Shown here: piece by piece, positions 1,965 to 11,299 of the stretch
Numbering within the stretch: the stretch's first letter is position 1
Layout: every line of letters starts with the position of its first letter
From: Archangium primigenium
GTDB lineage: Bacteria > Myxococcota > Myxococcia > Myxococcales > Myxococcaceae
Length of the DNA stretch: 64,000 nt
Assembly: GCF_016904885.1 (NCBI RefSeq)
Contig: NZ_JADWYI010000001.1
Coordinates: 248,001-312,000 of the forward strand
Reading direction: 5' to 3'
The notes under the pieces: model-generated
What the model saw: the letters and a program-made list of their open reading frames with translations, nothing else
The model's database searches: none
Told to the model about the DNA's origin: nothing
Made by a program: the position numbers and the translations under genes

Positions 1965-3614
1965 TCAGCGCTCGCGCAGCAGGAGCAGGCCGCGCGAGGT
2001 GTCCACCGTGTAGATGAAGCCATCCCCGGGCACGCGGATGCCGATGGCGCCCTCGTAGTAGGACTCGCCCCGGTTGGGGTCCGTCTCCCGGAAGGTGTTG
2101 TAGTACGCGGTCTGCCGGGGCTGGGTGGGGTTGGAGACATCCAGCACCCGCACGCCCTCCTGGTACCAGGCGACGTAGAGCTTCTTGCCCACCAGGAGCA
2201 GGTTGTGGATGGAGACCTCCGGGCGGAGCTGGAAGCGGCCGATCTTCACCATCCTCGTCGGGTCCGTGATGTCCAGCACGCGCAGGTGCTCGCCCACGCC
2301 CTCACCGCCCTCGAAGACGAGCGTGCGGCCCGCGAAGACGCCCACCGCGTTCGCATGGCTGTACTGCAAGGCATACGTGTACGCGCCGAGCGTGACCGGG
2401 GCGCGGGGATCCTTCACGTCCACTACGTAGAAGCCAATGTCCGCGAAGTTGACGTAGAGCCGGTCGCCCACGGCGAACATGTCATGGGGATAGGTGTAGT
2501 AGCCCTCGGGCGCGTAGCGGTGGAGCTCGACGGGCTGGAGGGGGTTGGCGATGTCGAAGAGGACCACCGACTCGTCGATCGTGGCGTAGAGCCGGTCGCC
2601 GTCCACGAAGACGGTGTGGTTGTTGGCGACGCCTCCGGGCAGGTTGCTCACCAGACGAGGCTCGGCGGGCGTCGTGATGTCGAAGACGAGCACGCCCCGC
2701 TGGGCGCTGGCGACGTAGAGGGCATCGCCCTGGGCCCAGACGCCATTCCAGTAGTTGTCGCCCTCGAACTGCACGGTCTTCAGCAGCACGGGCGCGGCAG
2801 GGTTCCGCACGTCGAAGACCGTGAGCCCGCCCAGGCGGGGCCCGCGGTTGAGGGACACCACGTAGGCATGGCCCCGATGGACATACACGTCCGCGGGCGT
2901 CCCGACGTCCACGGGGTTCTCCGAGACGAGCTCCAGACCGGAGGCGGCGCCCTCGCCCCGCGCCCCGTTCATGCGCCGGGAGCGGAAGGTGCCCTGGGTG
3001 ATGACCTGGCCATTGCGGCAGCTCGCATAGCAGCCCGTGAACACGCCCTCCGCGGAGGACTCGCACAGCGCCACGCCCGTGCGCCGCGTGCCCCCATCCG
3101 GAAAGCTGCTCGTCGTCACGGAATAGGCCCGCGCGTCGCCCTGCCGCTCCGCGATCGCCGGACGGGTGCCAATGCTCGGCGTGCCGCCATCCCCCCGCAG
3201 CGTGAGCAACGAGGCGTAGAAGTTGAAGGCCGCCTGCCGGTGGAGCAGCACGTGGACCCCCTCGTCGGGCACCCGCGCCAGGCTGGCCGTGTCACACGTG
3301 GACAGGTCGAAGCTGGACAGGCCGCAGTTGCCCGTGCCCGCCGTGAGGGCCCGGCACGTCGCGAACGGCCCGGTGTCCTCGGGCCAGTTGCCCACCTCCT
3401 CGAGCGGCACCGCGCTCCCATCCCACTCGGGCTCCGTGCCCCCGTCCGTGCCGCCATCCAGGCCAGGCTCCGTGCCCGCGTCCGAGGGCGTCTTGCCGCC
3501 CGCGTCGTCCGCCGCGCCCGGCCCCGGGGGCGTCGGCGGCGGGGGCGGCTCACAACCCCCAAGCGCCAGGGACAGCACGAGCAAGGTGAGCGGAACGAGA
3601 CGAGAACAGGTCAT
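1965..3614 (-). CDS. LVIVD-repeat lipoprotein
   Basis: 549 residues with a lipoprotein signal (MTCSRLVPLTLL...LALGGC), so probably anchored to the outer membrane. A Pro/Gly/Asp-rich linker follows, then a cysteine-containing region near residues 80-200. After that come at least six repeats of the LVIVD type, for example GLTVFDVRNPAAP, GVLVFDITTPAEP, FYVVDVKDPRAP and GVRVLDVSNPTQP, which form a beta-propeller-like surface. The start was chosen at the Met directly before the signal peptide rather than 13 codons upstream. Such proteins are common in myxobacteria and have no assigned biochemical function. It is convergent with the methyltransferase gene. Confidence 0.85.
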   Translation of the reverse strand: MTCSRLVPLTLLVLSLALGGCEPPPPPTPPGPGAADDAGGKTPSDAGTEPGLDGGTDGGTEPEWDGSAVPLEEVGNWPEDTGPFATCRALTAGTGNCGLSSFDLSTCDTASLARVPDEGVHVLLHRQAAFNFYASLLTLRGDGGTPSIGTRPAIAERQGDARAYSVTTSSFPDGGTRRTGVALCESSAEGVFTGCYASCRNGQVITQGTFRSRRMNGARGEGAASGLELVSENPVDVGTPADVYVHRGHAYVVSLNRGPRLGGLTVFDVRNPAAPVLLKTVQFEGDNYWNGVWAQGDALYVASAQRGVLVFDITTPAEPRLVSNLPGGVANNHTVFVDGDRLYATIDESVVLFDIANPLQPVELHRYAPEGYYTYPHDMFAVGDRLYVNFADIGFYVVDVKDPRAPVTLGAYTYALQYSHANAVGVFAGRTLVFEGGEGVGEHLRVLDITDPTRMVKIGRFQLRPEVSIHNLLLVGKKLYVAWYQEGVRVLDVSNPTQPRQTAYYNTFRETDPNRGESYYEGAIGIRVPGDGFIYTVDTSRGLLLLRER

Positions 3615-3666
3615 GTGTGGGCCCCCGACGACAAGAGAGCCCCCTGCATACACGGCACGCCCCCGC

Positions 3667-3934
3667 TCAGGCCAGGGCGCGCAGGGTCTCGGCCGCCCGG
3701 CGCACGTCCTCCTCGAAGTGCAGGCGCGCCTGGGCCCGCGCGCGCTCGTCCGGCATGCGCAAGAGCGCCGCGGGGTGGAACGTGGCCATCCACGCCTGCG
3801 CCCAGGGCGTCTCGAACACCTGCCCCCGGCTCAGGTTGATGCGGAAGCCCGGCCCCAGGAAGGACTGCGCCGCCGTGGCCCCCAGGCAGAGAATCATGCG
3901 TGGCTTCACCTGCCGCACCTCCGCCTCCAGCCAC
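3667..3934 (-). pseudogene. Displaced 3' fragment of the UdgX uracil-DNA glycosylase gene
   Basis: Encodes only the last ~88 residues of the UdgX fusion protein found intact at 9899-11299, including MILCLGATAAQSF, the ETPW segment and HPAALLRMP. Over 258 aligned bases it differs from the intact gene at about seven positions, mostly third codon positions, plus Pro/Gln and Ser/Ala changes. It ends in ...LRALA, whereas the intact gene ends in ...LRAMR. Homology stops abruptly at 3934, where island sequence begins. The best reading is the original host 3' end, cut off when the island inserted. It has no start or ribosome site of its own. Confidence 0.85.
3677..3934. repeat. Island-flanking direct repeat, left copy
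   Basis: 258-bp copy of the 3' part of udgX, in direct orientation and about 97% identical by eye to 9909-10166. Alignment is gap-free; homology ends at ...ctccagccac on the island side and at gcgcgcagg on the outer side. Confidence 0.9.
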
Positions 3935-4008
3935 ACAGCCATCGGATCAACGCTCTCGTACAAGACCCGCATCTGCCTGTAAACCCTCGCCCTAAAGGAG
4001 AACACGCC

Positions 4009-4482
4009 ATGCCTAGTCGCAAGAAACGGTACGCCTCCCCCAACAAGCACAATGGACCCCGACGTGGCGAGTCGCTGCAGGAGTGGATGCGTCGCGACAT
4101 CGAGAGAATGCGTCGTGAGGCCGAGAGGAACCCTCGCCCTGCTTACGTGGACGACCGCCAGCCCTCGCCCTGCTTCGACCAAACCAAGGAACAGATCGAG
4201 ACATGGCTCCGAGTCAACGTAAAGATGGGCACCGAGGTCGCGGTGCGGGAAACGCAGGGACACATCCTTCGCTACACTATTGCCTCAGTGAATTATCTCG
4301 GCAAGGGTCGTTTTGGATTGGGAAGCTTCGGTTCCTTCTACTACAACGGCAAAAACTGCTTTCACCCCAAGGGGCAGACCTGCTTGGTCATGCCGACCAA
4401 CGCCGTTCGCGAGTTCATCCAGCGGCACCCACAGGGGGCGTTTTCGCTCGCTAGGGACGGCTACCGAGTTGGGTTTTATTAA
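4009..4482 (+). CDS. Hypothetical protein, island cargo
   Basis: 157 residues; family not recognised. The start is fixed by AAAGGAG nine bases before the ATG. The N-terminal ~60 residues are strongly basic and helical (MPSRKKRY..., EWMRRDIERMRREAER). The C-terminal part is likely a small beta fold with aromatic/glycine runs (GRFGLGSFGSFYYNGKNCF) and two Cys (NCFHPKGQTC) that might pair or bind metal. GC is lower than in flanking host genes. It is the only forward-strand cargo gene, convergent with the subtilase fragment, so it is not co-transcribed with the defence pair. Its role is unknown. Confidence 0.75.
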   Translation: MPSRKKRYASPNKHNGPRRGESLQEWMRRDIERMRREAERNPRPAYVDDRQPSPCFDQTKEQIETWLRVNVKMGTEVAVRETQGHILRYTIASVNYLGKGRFGLGSFGSFYYNGKNCFHPKGQTCLVMPTNAVREFIQRHPQGAFSLARDGYRVGFY

Positions 4483-4594
4483 TACGACCTGATCACATGG
4501 GGCGTCCTTCGAGAAGAATTTCCACTCAGGTTACTGCAGCGCCCCCCCCCCTTGGGACGCGATTGGACAGAATCCAACCACGCCAAACTCCGCA

Positions 4595-5620
4595 CTACGC
4601 ACCTCCTGCGCCCACGTAAGCATCAACAGCAATTTCCTGCTGAATTCGAATAGGCTCATAAATCGAGACATCTCGCTCAAGCGACTCGAATGAGACGGCC
4701 AGGGAGTACGTCGCACTTGCATTGGGATCCTTATCCCAACCTGGGTGTCCGACGACAGCCACACAAAAAGACGAGGGCAACTGGTAGGCACTGACCACAG
4801 CCCAATCCTTCTGCAAGGTTCCCGCGTTTCTTCTTATCCCAGGTAAATAACCATTATCGATACGTTCACCAATAACCCAAGGAATCGAACCTTCGCCATC
4901 AGCCTCGACATCTTGCTGATCATGCAAAATTCGATTAACGAACGACTGTGCGGACTCACCAAGTCGGCTCGACTTCCAGTCAACCCATGTCGATAAGTAT
5001 CCGCGCAGGTTCCTTCTCGTCCTACGAGGCCGCGCAGCATAAGCAAGCGTCACTTCAATTAAAATCCGACTATTCAATCCTGGAGCCCGTAAAGAATCTG
5101 GCACTGCCACCTCATAGACGAGGGCTTCCCTAGCCCTAACAGTTTGTCGGCCGCTCGTCTTCAGAGTTACCCTGAATTCATCATTCTGAGTCGCGCGCTC
5201 AAGACTCGGCACACCAAAGCCCAACGTTCTGAGCACTGCAATTAACTTGTCTTCGGAAAGATGCTGAGCCCAACTTGGCCATCGGGCAGACTGAGCAATC
5301 AGTGCACGACATGTCTGAGCACTATCTTCCGGAAACAACGACTGAAGCGCAGCTGCGATGTGTGCCACTTTGGGTGCAGCAAACGACGTTCCAATCAAAT
5401 CGCGGTCCCACTCGGGACTGGGGGGGAAGCGTGTTGCCCTTACGAGCGGAGGACAAACCTCCACAGGGAAGGAGAGAGATACAGGCTCCGTTTGATTGTT
5501 TACAGAGTAGTTGCCTCCAAACTCGACAACATCTGGCTTAATCGTAGACCAGATCCCAAAACCTGAAGCAGAAAACATAGACGGCCCACCAGGGGCTCTG
5601 TGTTCCTCAGGAGAATGGGC
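4595..5620 (-). pseudogene. ietS: IetS-like S8 subtilase, C-terminal fragment (Ser half)
   Basis: Carries the subtilase serine motif IGTSFAAPKVAHIAAAL (Ser at about residue 599 of the restored protein), preceded by the usual IKPDVVEFGGN strand, then about 220 residues of C-terminal beta-rich domain ending AYVGAGGA. The open frame runs back into IS sequence. Its first native codon is just inside the IS boundary, and the first in-frame Met is at 5578. It is in the same frame as the N-terminal half: removing 5621-6646 (1026 bp) rejoins one 861-codon gene. As it stands the fragment lacks the Asp, His and oxyanion Asn and should be inactive. Confidence 0.85.
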
Positions 5621-6646
5621 CTGACAGCGGGAATCGAATGAGCTGAGGCGCCCAGGGGTTGATCGGGAGCGATGGGAACGACAGCACTCTCGATGGACTT
5701 GAGGCAACGGGTGGTTGAGGCCTTCCAGCAAGGAGAGGGGACGTCCAAGCAATTGGCACGTCGCTTCGGAGTGGGTAGGGCCACGGTCCAACGCTGGATG
5801 CGTCTCACTCGTGAGACGGGAAGCCCTGCTCCGCGGCCGCACGGGGGTGGGCAAACCCACCTAATAGGCGATGGGGAGCTGAGCGCTTTTCGTCGCCTGG
5901 TCGATGAACAACCCGACCGGACCCGAGCCGAGATGGCGCGAGCGTGGACGGAGCGCACAGGCGTGCGAGTGAGCGTGGCAACCATCGGCCGGACGCTGAC
6001 GCGATTGGGCTACACGCTCAAAAAAAGTCCGCTACCCGACCGAACGCGAACGACCCGACGTCCAAGCCCAACGAGAGGCCTTTCACCAACGACAACCCGA
6101 GCTTCCGACTCCCAAGGTGTTGAGCATCGACGAGGCGGGCTGCACCATCGACATGATGCGCGAACGAGCCTGGGCCCCGACGGGACAACGCGTGGCGCAA
6201 GCTGTCCCTCGCAATCGAGGCACCGTGCTGAGCATGATTGGCGCGCTCAGTCTCGATGGGCTGGAAACCGTCATGATGAATGAGGGAGCCACGACTGGGG
6301 ATGTCTTCCTCCATTTCGTCAGCCATTATCTCCTGACGATGCTGCGGCCTGGAGACATCGTCTTGTTGGACAGAGCGGGGGCGCACTTTCGAAAGGAAGC
6401 CATCGCCCTCATTGAGCAGCATGGAGGCCAGGTGCTCTACCTGCCTCCGTATTCACCCGACCTCAACCCCATTGAATTCGCATGGTCCAAGCTCAAGGGA
6501 TTGCTCCGGACGGCAGAAGCGCGCACCGTCACAGCACTTCGTCAGGCGGTCGAGGACGCCATGCTGCTCATTTCTGCCTCGGATGCGGCCCAATGGTTCA
6601 AAGCCTGTGGCTTTCAGCCTCAAGCCACGTGATCTCCGCTGTGAGG
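5621..6646 (+). mobile_element. IS630-family insertion sequence interrupting the subtilase gene
   Basis: Roughly 1.03 kb. The ends are imperfect inverted repeats: left CTGACAGCGGGAATC and right (reverse complement) CTCACAGCGGAGATC, continuing to a shared GCTGAGG/GCTTGAGG. The transposase lies between them and its stop falls inside the right repeat. IS630 elements normally duplicate a TA; no flanking TA is visible, so the exact boundary (give or take two bases) is unresolved. The GC of the IS is higher than that of the surrounding island, so it arrived separately. Confidence 0.85.
5672..6632 (+). CDS. IS630 transposase, two overlapping frames joined by a frameshift at an A7 run
   Basis: Frame one (from 5672) encodes the helix-turn-helix half (LARRFGVGRATVQRWMRL, then RTRAEMARAWTERTGV...TLTRLGYTLKK). 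Frame two, open from about 6021 to 6632, continues VRYPTERERPDVQAQ...LSIDEAGC, IVLLDRAGAH and YSPDLNPIEFAWSKLK, giving the DDE-type D-D-E triad. The junction is seven A residues at 6020-6026. A net shift of one base there restores a complete ~320-residue IS630 transposase. Slippage on A7 is a plausible programmed mechanism for this family; a simple inactivating indel is the alternative. Confidence 0.85.
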
Positions 6647-8206
6647 CGCACCATAGGCAATCGAGCCGACCGTCAGCGCATGCAGACTTTGAGCAGGGTC
6701 CGCAATTCGGCATGAGTCCTCAAGAAGAAAGCGTGGGTAGGTTCGACCTGATTGAAGATGGTTGATGATACCCAATCTATTTGTTCGCGTCTCAAGAGCA
6801 GGAAGATTACCGGCCGACTGCACAAACAACACATCATGCACCGCCGACAGCATATCTATAGACGCAGCCCACGCTGACATATGCCGAAGCCTGCACGGGA
6901 AATAACTCGAAACCGAGTGGTTAAATATCTTAGTACTAGGCGAAGAAGAGTTTAACCTCTCAACAATAGCCGTGAGCGTGGATGGAGGAAAAAGCCCCTT
7001 GGGCAACTGATTTTCCTCATTCAGAATACGCGCATTTTGTATCCAAAAAGGCGCAGCAACTGCTCCAGTTACGGGTATCGAAAAAGGGAAAAGCACAGCA
7101 CCCGCGACTCTGGTGCCATGGCCACCAGGACGCACTCGATCTGATACGTCTGGATCCCCAGGAACGTAACTCAGCGACACAGCAGTGTCGATAGCCGCAG
7201 ACAGAAGCCGATGTTCCTCTTGGATACCGCTATCGATCACACAAACACGAGGAGCGTCGTCCGACGGCGCCAGAATGGCAACGGATTGTGCACCAGCAGT
7301 TCGGACAGCACTCAAGCCCGGATGACTCATTACATCTTGTGGTTCCACCACCTCGAAAACATACGGCATGTTCAGCACGACATCGCGAAGTCCTCTTCCA
7401 CTTATTCGTACTCGCGCCGTAAACCTATCTGGCAACTCAGAAAAACCACCTACCCCACCATCCACATTACTTACAATCTCTCCTTCGTACGCATTAACAA
7501 AGCGCTCAAGAAGTTCTTCACGCTCCATCTTGAGTTCATCCCACTTCACATAAACAGCGTCACGCTTACGCTGCCACGCCGCAAGTCGATTCAAAAAGCG
7601 TGAGTCTTCCTCTTCTTCCTTTTTCTCAGGAGGATCAGGAAGCTCAACACTTCCGAGGCACTCTATGCCTATATCGACAAGGTATATACCGTCCTCAACA
7701 ATCCTAGGCCAAAGAGCGTAAAGCCCTTCTGAAAGAAGGCGCTCTGGGCGCAATACGGCTTCGTCTTGACCATACAATTCGTACAGCTTCGCAGCGCTGC
7801 CGCCCCCTCTTTTCCCTTTAACAAACTTGTCTACACACTGCTCAAGCTTAGAAAAATCAAAGTCTGGAGTAACAGCAACAACGAATCCATTCTCCTGTTC
7901 GCTAACAACCTCCAAGCCAAATGAACTGCGAATGTAGTCAACATCAGCATCAGGATCGACTCTCAACAGCATCGGCCCAGCTGCCGGCAAGACAGGAAGC
8001 CCCTCCGCGGCACGACTTTGCTCGACTGCGCCACGGAGTGCCTGAACGCGTTTCATACTAGCGCTGAGCCGGTTGGCATGCACTACGGGCTGAGACTTAT
8101 TTACATTCGTCTGCTCATTTGTCCGACCTCCGCCACGCAATTTGGGCCTACCCGACTGGCGGGCCAACAGACTCAAATGAGGGAGACCAAGAGATGGAGG
8201 AGTCAC
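6647..8206 (-). pseudogene. ietS: IetS-like S8 subtilase, N-terminal fragment (Asp/His/Asn half)
   Basis: 520 codons of a subtilisin-type protease truncated by the IS. GTG start at 8206, 25 bases after the ATPase stop, with AGAGG upstream. Residues 1-310 form a long N-terminal region with a charged EKKEEEED linker and no signal peptide, so it is cytoplasmic. The catalytic Asp is in VIDSGI (~324), the His in GGHGTRVAG (~364) and the oxyanion Asn in QSAGN (~463). The native frame ends at ...TVGSIAYGA and then reads about nine IS-encoded residues to a stop. Family: partner protease of IetA-type ATPases; the substrate in that system is unknown to me. Confidence 0.85.
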
Positions 8207-8231
8207 GATTTAGCATGCCTCTTCTAATTGA

Positions 8232-9221
8232 TTAAGGTCCACGCGCCAGTGCGGAGAGCGCACGCGCAAAGTGCTTTTGCTCAACTACCCGTCCCCCAGA
8301 CAAAATGCTTTCTTTCGCTGCCTCTTGAGCAACACGAACAATGGTCGCCGCAGACTGCCCTAGCAACTGCTCTTCAATCTCCTGCCAACGGATATCAACA
8401 GAAGCATCGATTGATGACAGTGTAGAGCGAAGCAATTCTTCGACTTGCCCAGTTTCAGGAGGTGGCATCTCTATCGACTCATCGAATCTGCGGAAGACAG
8501 CTGAGTCTAAAACAGTGTGCAGATTGGTTGTGGCGACAACGAGCCCACGACCATTGTAGTCATCTAGCATCTGCAAAAACGTATTAACAATTCGCGGAGC
8601 CTCACCAACATCGTTCTGCTGTAGCCTTGTTCGCGCCACGAAATCACACTCATCCAACAGAAGCACACAGGGCGTATCTTCTGCGGCATCAAATACCTGC
8701 CGAAGGTTCGACGCAGACTCCCCGAACAGGCTAGACATAACCGCATCAAAACGAACCTTAAACAAGGGCAACCCAACACCAAACGCCAAACGCTCCGCCG
8801 CAAGCGTTTTGCCACACCCAGGCGGCCCATACAGCAAAATCTTCTGTTTATTCCTAAGACCAAAACGAGACAATCGTTCACTAGCCGCGAACTCTTTCTC
8901 GATTCGACCAAGTCGATTGTCGATGTCTGAGCGAAGAACCATGTGGCGCCGTAAGCGATCAAGTGGCACCTTAGACATCAGAACTTGGTTACTTCTACGG
9001 TTTCGCGGCAGTTCGCTGAGTGCACTCACCTTACGGGAGGAATCTTGTGCCAGGGGTGGCGCGATGCTCGCACCATCAAATATCCCCTGAAGCTGCTTCA
9101 CAAGCTGCGTGTGTCCCTTTTTCTTCTCTTCAGAGAGGATTACCTGGGAGACCTGAGTGACATCGCTCCAAGAGCGATTGCCGATGGCTCTAAACAGTCG
9201 CTTGAGGGTGTCTGAATGCAC
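8232..9221 (-). CDS. ietA: IetA-like AAA ATPase of an ATPase-subtilase defence pair
   Basis: 329 residues, full length for the family. The N-terminal ~110 residues are helical and probably regulatory. The AAA module shows Walker A GPPGCGKT (~133), Walker B LLLDECD (~190), sensor ATTN and the arginine-finger region FRRFDE, with a small C-terminal lid. It sits immediately upstream of the subtilase in the same operon, the gene order of the IetAS pair reported as anti-phage in bacterial defence surveys (Gao et al. 2020, from memory). It is presumed to sense or remodel a phage-related target and control the protease. The ATPase looks intact although its partner is broken. Composition matches the island, not the host. 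Confidence 0.85.
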   Translation of the reverse strand: MHSDTLKRLFRAIGNRSWSDVTQVSQVILSEEKKKGHTQLVKQLQGIFDGASIAPPLAQDSSRKVSALSELPRNRRSNQVLMSKVPLDRLRRHMVLRSDIDNRLGRIEKEFAASERLSRFGLRNKQKILLYGPPGCGKTLAAERLAFGVGLPLFKVRFDAVMSSLFGESASNLRQVFDAAEDTPCVLLLDECDFVARTRLQQNDVGEAPRIVNTFLQMLDDYNGRGLVVATTNLHTVLDSAVFRRFDESIEMPPPETGQVEELLRSTLSSIDASVDIRWQEIEEQLLGQSAATIVRVAQEAAKESILSGGRVVEQKHFARALSALARGP

Positions 9222-9246
9222 AATCGCTCTCTTGAAGGCGCAGAGT

Positions 9247-9263
9247 AGCAGACTGAATCTGCT
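9247..9263. promoter_or_regulatory. Short palindrome upstream of ietA
   Basis: AGCAGA-N5-TCTGCT lies 26-42 bases upstream of the ietA start, where an operator or promoter element would be expected. No regulator gene is in the island and the arms are short, so this is tentative. Confidence 0.3.
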
Positions 9264-9413
9264 TACTACTGTCAGAGGCAGTTAGCCTTCTCTAGAAAAA
9301 ATCAGCCGGGAGATGTCTCTTGCTCGAATCACCGCCGAGTTCTTGCTGGGCCCCAAAGGAAAGAAGCCCTCCATGAGCCTGCGGACAGCATCCGCACCCA
9401 CACTACCTCAGAC

Positions 9414-9639
9414 AACATCACTGTGCCTCCTGTAGCAAACCGATGTGAACATCTCAGCGAGATTTCATCCTCGAAAGTTACCGTGAACCATTAAAACGCG
9501 TTACAACATAGCTGTCTAGAACACTCCTGCATCAAGGCGCAGCGCACCTGACCATAGCGCACTACGCCCTCGAAGGCACCTCTCATCGAAGACGCAACTA
9601 CCGCCCCATTCGGAACATCCCTGTGCACGGATGTAGCAA
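9414..9639. repeat. Pair of imperfect direct repeats in the island right arm
   Basis: Units at 9414-9438 and 9614-9639 share AACATC-N-CTGTGC-N4/5-TGTAGCAA, separated by about 200 bases. No coding potential lies between them. They could be remnants of recombinase-binding arm sites or chance. Confidence 0.35.
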
Positions 9640-9898
9640 CGTCGCACGGGACCCAATAGCTCTGCACTGGTCTTCAGTATTTCAGTTTAAGTCAGCACAA
9701 ACACTAGGCGTAAAACCGCCAAGCTAAATTCCACAAACAGTGGATCTCAATAAAGCCGAGAGACTGGCCCGCATTTCACTGTTAGAGTAGCGGTCGGGGC
9801 TGGCCTCTGTGGCCATACGCTGCGGCACGAGGCGTCAATAGTCAGCCCTTCAGCACAACTTCATGTCAGATGTAGCCACAATTGAGCACCAACCCATC

Positions 9899-11299
9899 TT
9901 AGCGCATAGCGCGCAGGGTCTCGGCCGCCCGGCGCACGTCCTCCTCGAAGTGCAGGCGCGCCTGGGCCCGCGCGCGCTCGTCCGGCATGCGCAGGAGCGC
10001 CGAGGGGTGGAACGTGGCCATCCACGCCGGGGCCCAGGGCGTCTCGAACACCTGCCCCCGGCTCAGGTTGATGCGGAAGCCCGGCCCCAGGAAGGACTGC
10101 GCCGCCGTGGCCCCCAGGCACAGGATCATGCGCGGCTTCACCTGCCGCACCTCCGCCTCCAGCCACGCCTTGCACGCGAGCACCTCGCGTCGGCCGGGCT
10201 TGGCGTGCAGCCGCTTCTTCTCGTCCCCCTCCATCCAGCCGAAGTGCTTCACCGCATTGGTGACGTACAGCTGCTGGCGGTCGAGCCCCACTCCCGCGAG
10301 CACCTCGTCCAGGAGCTGGCCCGCCGGGCCGATGAAGGGCCGCCCCTCCCGGTCCTCGTTGTCGCCGGGCTGCTCGCCCACGAGCATCAATCGCGCGTCC
10401 ACCGGGCCCTCGCCGAACACCGTCTGGGTGGCGCGCTCGTGCAGCGGACACGCCTTGCACCCGTGCGCCGCTCGCGCCAGCGAGGCCAGGTCCTGGTGCT
10501 CGGGCAGGTACAGGCTCGCGTCGGAGACCTCCATGCGCGGGCGCACCATCTTCGCCGTGCGCTCGGGGGCGCCGCGCACCAGCTCCGGAATCAGCCGAGC
10601 CTCGGGCAGGGTCGCCCAGTGCTTCTGGGGCATCTCCGCGCGCATGGCCCGCACGTTGAGGCGCGCCGGGTTGAAGGTGGAGGCGTAGTACGTGCTCCAC
10701 ATCTCCTCCAGCGCGTCCCCCTCGGGCGCCTCCGAGCGCGGCACCCCGGGCCCGTAGGTGAGCCGCTCCCGGTCCCAGGACACGCTCGCGTCCGGGGTGA
10801 GGATGCTCCAGCGCATGGAGGGAAAGCGCCGCGCGAAGAAGGGCGCCACGTGGCGCACGATGAGGTGGTCCGGCCGGTGCCAGGCGATGAAGTACTCCTC
10901 CCCTTCCCGGTCCACCTTCCGAAAGCGCACGAAGGCCTTCATCTTGTGCGCGTCGCGCTGCACCGCCTTGGCGAGCGTGTGCAGGCGGTACACGTCCTCG
11001 TCGCTCACCACCTCCAGGAGCTTGCGCTCGCCGTGGGTGAGCCGCCAGAGCACCCGGTAGAGCCCGCCCCAGCGCTCGGGGGAGCGGTGACACGCCACGC
11101 GCTCGGCCAGGTCCAGGAACGCCGGGGGCACGCTCAGCCCGGCCACCGGAGCGCTCGACGCCACCGTGTCCGCCCCCAGGAGGGACGCCTGCCGCTCCCG
11201 CTCCTCGGTGAAGAGGACCTTGTCGGGCGGCACGCCCCGCACGAGCAGGCCGCGCGCCGCCTCGCGGAAGGACGCCAGGTCCGACACCTCCACCCGCAT
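9899..11299 (-). CDS. UdgX-type uracil-DNA glycosylase with N-terminal DUF4130-like domain
   Basis: 466 residues. Residues ~1-240 match the DUF4130/TIGR03915 DNA-metabolism domain; ~260-466 are a family-4-like UDG of the UdgX branch (TIGR03914). Seen: Fe-S cysteines beginning with CKACPLHERA, the uracil-pocket GEQPGDNEDREGRPFIGPAG, and EKKRLHAKP. The last corresponds to the KRRIH loop by which UdgX bonds covalently to uracil-containing DNA through histidine. Motif B is HPSALLR. The start ATG follows the radical-SAM stop by one base (tgacATG), so the pair is an operon. The last three codons differ from the displaced copy at 3667, because the extreme 3' end is supplied by the island. Confidence 0.9.
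   Translation of the reverse strand: MRVEVSDLASFREAARGLLVRGVPPDKVLFTEERERQASLLGADTVASSAPVAGLSVPPAFLDLAERVACHRSPERWGGLYRVLWRLTHGERKLLEVVSDEDVYRLHTLAKAVQRDAHKMKAFVRFRKVDREGEEYFIAWHRPDHLIVRHVAPFFARRFPSMRWSILTPDASVSWDRERLTYGPGVPRSEAPEGDALEEMWSTYYASTFNPARLNVRAMRAEMPQKHWATLPEARLIPELVRGAPERTAKMVRPRMEVSDASLYLPEHQDLASLARAAHGCKACPLHERATQTVFGEGPVDARLMLVGEQPGDNEDREGRPFIGPAGQLLDEVLAGVGLDRQQLYVTNAVKHFGWMEGDEKKRLHAKPGRREVLACKAWLEAEVRQVKPRMILCLGATAAQSFLGPGFRINLSRGQVFETPWAPAWMATFHPSALLRMPDERARAQARLHFEEDVRRAAETLRAMR
9909..10166. repeat. Island-flanking direct repeat, right copy (within intact udgX)
   Basis: Counterpart of 3677-3934 in the same orientation, about seven mismatches in 258 bases. Its boundary at 10166 marks the likely recombination point inside udgX. 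Confidence 0.9.

Follow-up and report, generated by a model that had tools for sequence, protein, structure and literature searches.

Integrase attachment sites in protein genes can contain blocks of identity that reach ~250 bp with an internal site, and the replacement sequence brought by the element keeps the target gene functional, as described for icd (PMC10111431). Integration of e14 at icd leaves a displaced icd fragment, and the identity block measures 163 bp (PMC6379469). In the Vibrio T6SS Aux clusters new cargo is found at a conserved gene, and an old downstream piece is left over (PMC9711863).

Here we describe an island of ~6 kb in the 3' part of udgX of Archangium primigenium (genome of 9.49 Mb, three contigs, GC roughly 70%). 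The window, which is the whole stretch of DNA analysed, comprises 64,000 nucleotides (G000:C1:248001-312000). Like the e14-type elements at icd, the locus has a long identity block at the 3' end of the target, an in-frame replacement end and a displaced native end (PMC6379469, PMC10111431). It differs from them in its target, in its cargo, which is a defence pair, and in that no integrase or phage genes are left. The likeness to the Vibrio Aux clusters is restricted to the general outcome: no donor cluster is known here, and what was displaced is part of a gene and not an immunity gene.

The kind of island is known, and its target udgX is apparently unreported. In the papers searched, which did not include the fullest list of targets, udgX is not described as an integration site. 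Within this coverage, the proposal of the first-pass annotation that the target is undescribed agrees with what was found. If the integrase reading given below is true, udgX, a DNA-repair-type gene, joins the protein genes that serve as landing sites for islands. The significance is modest, since more than a single decayed island lacking a recombinase is needed to establish a site. The displaced native end together with the replacement end would form a readable record of the insertion, and the site can be used to seek intact islands elsewhere.

The repeated 3' end of udgX

The udgX gene encodes a predicted fusion of a DUF4130/TIGR03915 domain and a UdgX-family uracil-DNA glycosylase. Its 3' end is present in two direct copies at 3677-3934 (left copy) and 9909-10166 (right copy), which share 97.3% identity over 258 bp with 7 mismatches. 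Re-reading of the copies in register confirmed the coordinates, the length and the count of about seven mostly synonymous differences given in the first-pass annotation. Synonymous differences account for 5/7; the encoded amino acid differs only at codons 423 (Q/P) and 432 (A/S). Identical runs of 89 and 85 bp occur within the repeat, and a further one of 33 bp lies at its gene-internal edge. A chance repeat is ruled out by 258 bp at 97%. The GC content is 0.50-0.65 between the copies versus 0.70-0.76 in the flanks, so the description of the intervening DNA as lower in GC was accurate. A tRNA gene was also considered as the target and rejected, as the window contains none. The repeat, udgX and the gene next to the left copy are as follows.

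1965..3653, minus strand: LVIVD-repeat lipoprotein gene adjoining the displaced end; belongs to another 6.1-kb block that is specific to this genome and ends at an SNF2 gene
3667..3934, minus strand: left copy (repeat 3677-3934) with native last codons and TGA stop; putative displaced native udgX 3' end, tracking the relatives through the stop
3902..3934, partner 10134-10166, no strand: perfectly identical 33-bp block at the gene-internal repeat edge; candidate crossover core if an integrase acted
9899..9908, minus strand: substituted terminal codons (..T ATG CGC TAA); the match to the left copy and to the relatives stops at 9909
9899..11299, minus strand: udgX fusion gene, intact, 3' end substituted; Pfam PF13566 and PF03167, TIGR03914 270 bits, TIGR03915 201 bits
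9909..10166, minus strand: right copy, 3' end of the intact udgX, from the repeat alignment

The two copies end differently, as had been noted before (ALA versus AMR). The left copy reads ...RALA TGA (stop at 3667) and the right copy ...RAMR TAA (stop at 9899). The ending RAL-G/A-TGA is that of udgX in G001-G003, which belong to the same genus, and in most other relatives; it agrees with the left copy, whose last codons GCC CTG GCC TGA are relative-like through the stop. The right copy departs from homology at 9909 and ends with GCT ATG CGC TAA, and an ending of this type was found in none of the relatives compared. One relative, G010, also has ATG at that terminal codon with a different continuation; therefore, the methionine alone is no proof of foreign origin. 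Together, these comparisons support the view that the left copy represents the native end of udgX, now displaced, and that the right copy's tail is foreign. This bears out the earlier suggestion that the native end was displaced to the far side of the island. The gene remained in frame after the insertion and encodes 466 amino acids with full TIGR03914 and TIGR03915 matches. In the left copy the invariant serine of the HPSALLR motif is an alanine, a loss that is expected of a fragment without function.

Cargo of the island

The DNA between the copies contains the following features.

4009..4482, plus strand: ORF of 157 amino acids without family match; relatives on alphaproteobacterial plasmids
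4595..8206, minus strand: ietS-like subtilase gene, interrupted; N part from 8206 to about 6643, C part from about 5623 to 4595; PADLOC IetS E 5.1e-31 (N) and 4.6e-19 (C)
5624..6642, plus strand: IS630-family element inside ietS; family match, with five further full copies, nearly identical, elsewhere in the genome
8232..9221, minus strand: ietA-like AAA ATPase gene, intact, 329 amino acids; PADLOC IetA E 1.9e-72, NCBIfam IteA 215 bits, under its 510 cut-off
9222..9898, no strand: ~680-bp stretch from ietA to the right repeat in which neither a gene nor an integrase remnant was recognised

As in described IetAS systems, genes for an AAA ATPase and a subtilase are adjacent on the same strand and match the PADLOC models. 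Unlike in these systems, ietS is split by IS630, and the IetA- and IetS-like scores are both under the NCBIfam equivalog cut-offs. Based on the PADLOC matches, the cargo is assigned as an IetAS-type anti-phage pair. The pair is probably inactive now, because the IS630 copy splits ietS, and the defence island is thus already decaying. Throughout the genome this IS630-family element is represented by six near-identical full copies and shorter fragments, which points to recent activity.

The closest ietA relative found (46%) belongs to a Burkholderia plantarii plasmid, where an S8 peptidase gene adjoins it and a site-specific integrase gene is nearby; the best match within the family reaches 37%. 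Relatives of the 157-aa ORF are absent from the 194 other genomes of the phylum that were searched (1/195); those found are hypothetical genes on alphaproteobacterial plasmids. Judged from the plasmid relatives of both genes and the low identity of ietA within the family, the cargo of the island is foreign. In the plasmids read, members of the unnamed family of the 157-aa ORF follow other hypothetical genes, and their surroundings include restriction, Abi or toxin-antitoxin genes. Viral contigs gave no match to ietA and phage records none to the island. A matching udgX end was absent from the phage records and viral contigs searched, and the plasmid matches to udgX were ordinary distant udgX genes.

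Mode of insertion

The arrangement is best explained by an integrase-type insertion with a replacement 3' end, which would make the locus a degenerate island in the 3' part of udgX; we give this reading about an even chance. A mobile DNA carrying ietAS, the 157-aa ORF and the 258-bp udgX 3'-end sequence as attachment site would have recombined with the chromosomal udgX, most simply near codons 378-388. By this event udgX would have received the last ~80 codons of the element together with the new terminal Met-Arg-stop, and its native 3' end would have been moved to the opposite end of the island. The integrase gene may have been lost later, or the integrase may have acted in trans. Under this reading a site-specific integrase is the presumed agent, and the 33-bp identical edge block is compatible with a natural place for the crossover or att core; the runs of 89 and 85 bp equally suit a homologous exchange. 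In favour of an integrase is the repeat itself, which brackets a sharp drop in GC. Against it, the island is small at 6 kb, the phage records and viral contigs searched hold no matching udgX end, and homologous recombination would produce an identical topology.

No integrase, excisionase or remnant of either was detected in the ORFs of the island or in the end region 9222-9898, where stop-to-stop pieces were considered as a decayed integrase and rejected, having no meaningful Pfam or PHROG match. The only recombinase in the island is the IS630 transposase, and the tyrosine recombinases of the genome are encoded millions of bases away. The remark that no integrase remains is thereby corroborated by both searches. 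Independent islands ending at the same udgX codon and carrying a recombinase did not turn up among the 195 same-phylum genomes; an additional, nearly identical 3' copy beside an intact udgX occurs in 1/195 only, and no second island was found at this codon. The repeats, the displaced end and the in-frame target speak for the claim that an integrative element had entered a protein gene, and the missing integrase and the missing second island speak against it.

The observations are explained nearly as well by homologous or illegitimate recombination as by an integrase. RecA-type recombination could have acted on a udgX 3' end linked to ietAS, either on a circle by a single crossover or on a linear fragment from a close relative. 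In the latter case the other end would have been joined illegitimately at 3934/3935, and the old 3' end would have been left as an orphan. The lack of a recombinase in the island speaks for this process, the identical runs in the repeat are ample for exchange, and homology-facilitated illegitimate recombination leaving orphan genes was proposed for T6SS clusters (PMC9711863). The two copies are furthermore sister sequences with 100% support, so that a donor allele would have come from a near relative. However, this presupposes a cargo that was already joined to a udgX end, so that the same question arises for the donor, and no such donor was found in the family. We regard this explanation as a real though minority possibility. 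A less probable variant, which we consider unlikely, is an integrase-free defence cassette that would spread with a fragment of the conserved repair gene udgX as its homology arm: host homologous recombination would insert it, the gene would be restored at every insertion, and the repeats would allow its exit.

The branch lengths of the two copies bear on the origin of the replacement allele. Approximately 3 private changes fall on the right copy and 4 on the left; the seven differences gave neither a date nor a polarity for the insertion. The changes on the left branch comprise 3 synonymous and 1 non-synonymous. Under neutrality, at most one non-synonymous change among four has P about 0.05-0.14 depending on the mutation model. 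Mostly synonymous changes on the left branch suggest that two alleles diverged while functional, and they weakly favour an element that carried its own, pre-diverged udgX allele. As both copies carry private changes, the idea that the element brought its own 3' allele has weak support.

These private changes, similar in number on both branches, would also result if 258 bp of the native gene had been doubled in situ during the insertion event, for example by template switching in break repair, and had then drifted. The loss of the invariant HPSALLR serine from the left copy agrees with such a functionless fragment. But a functionless fragment should have collected mostly non-synonymous changes, contrary to the ratio on the left branch, and a target duplication of 258 bp is unusual for transposons. 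In situ duplication is accordingly held to be quite improbable.

The udgX locus in related genomes

G001 and G003, two relatives from the genus, have one udgX each, and an SNF2-helicase gene comes about 50 bp after it; this order is also seen at the decayed locus of G002. Neither the island nor a second udgX 3' copy is present in these genomes. Relatives without the island carry one udgX 3' end, and neither both copies nor the right-type ending was encountered in them, which agrees with the account given by the first-pass annotation. Its predicted empty site, a udgX ending with ALA beside the LVIVD gene, is present in none of the genomes read; the genus has udgX-SNF2 instead.

In the window genome 6.1 kb separate the left copy from the SNF2 gene, which is located about 2.5 kb to the left of the window. 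The intervening GC-rich block comprises the genes for the LVIVD lipoprotein, a methyltransferase and an ADH and two further ORFs (L113:5542-11654, G000:C1 about 245.5-251.65 kb). Its GC is host-like, and solely in the window genome is it located between udgX and SNF2. The ADH of the block is at most 59% identical to proteins of the genus, compared with about 90% for the SNF2 and rSAM proteins. An LVIVD neighbour was also sought in relatives, where the closest genes (58-62% identical) are located elsewhere and none adjoins udgX. A third udgX copy, which would mark tandem integration, was not found at the SNF2 junction; hence the LVIVD block came by another route than the island. From these gene orders, two separate additions sit between udgX and SNF2 in the window genome only, and the LVIVD block is unrelated to the island.

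A special hotspot downstream of udgX was considered and dismissed. The neighbours downstream vary between lineages, but the short upstream stretch varies too, which indicates a general loss of gene order.

The left copy could finally be the remnant of an older, decayed udgX, with an intact rSAM-udgX-ietAS segment having come later by replacement. Relatives G071, G061, G080 and G081 do carry 3'-only udgX remnants without an intact gene, and the operon of G002 is internally deleted. In the window genome, however, the gene order aldh-rSAM-udgX is that of the genus, and with copies 97% identical the replacing segment would have to be long and to come from a very close relative. We judge this course of events very improbable.

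The locus of G071 was inspected as a possible second displaced end and rejected, since an intact udgX is missing there and the sequence resembles what a deletion leaves. The rSAM-udgX operon was lost repeatedly in related genomes, and several keep 3' remnants only, with differing breakpoints. Remnants of the udgX 3' end without the full gene are located at

L124:3339-3566
L148:10012-10209
L149:10219-10389
L150:10836-10946
L044:11854-12593

and those in L044, L148 and L150 are joined to rSAM remnants.
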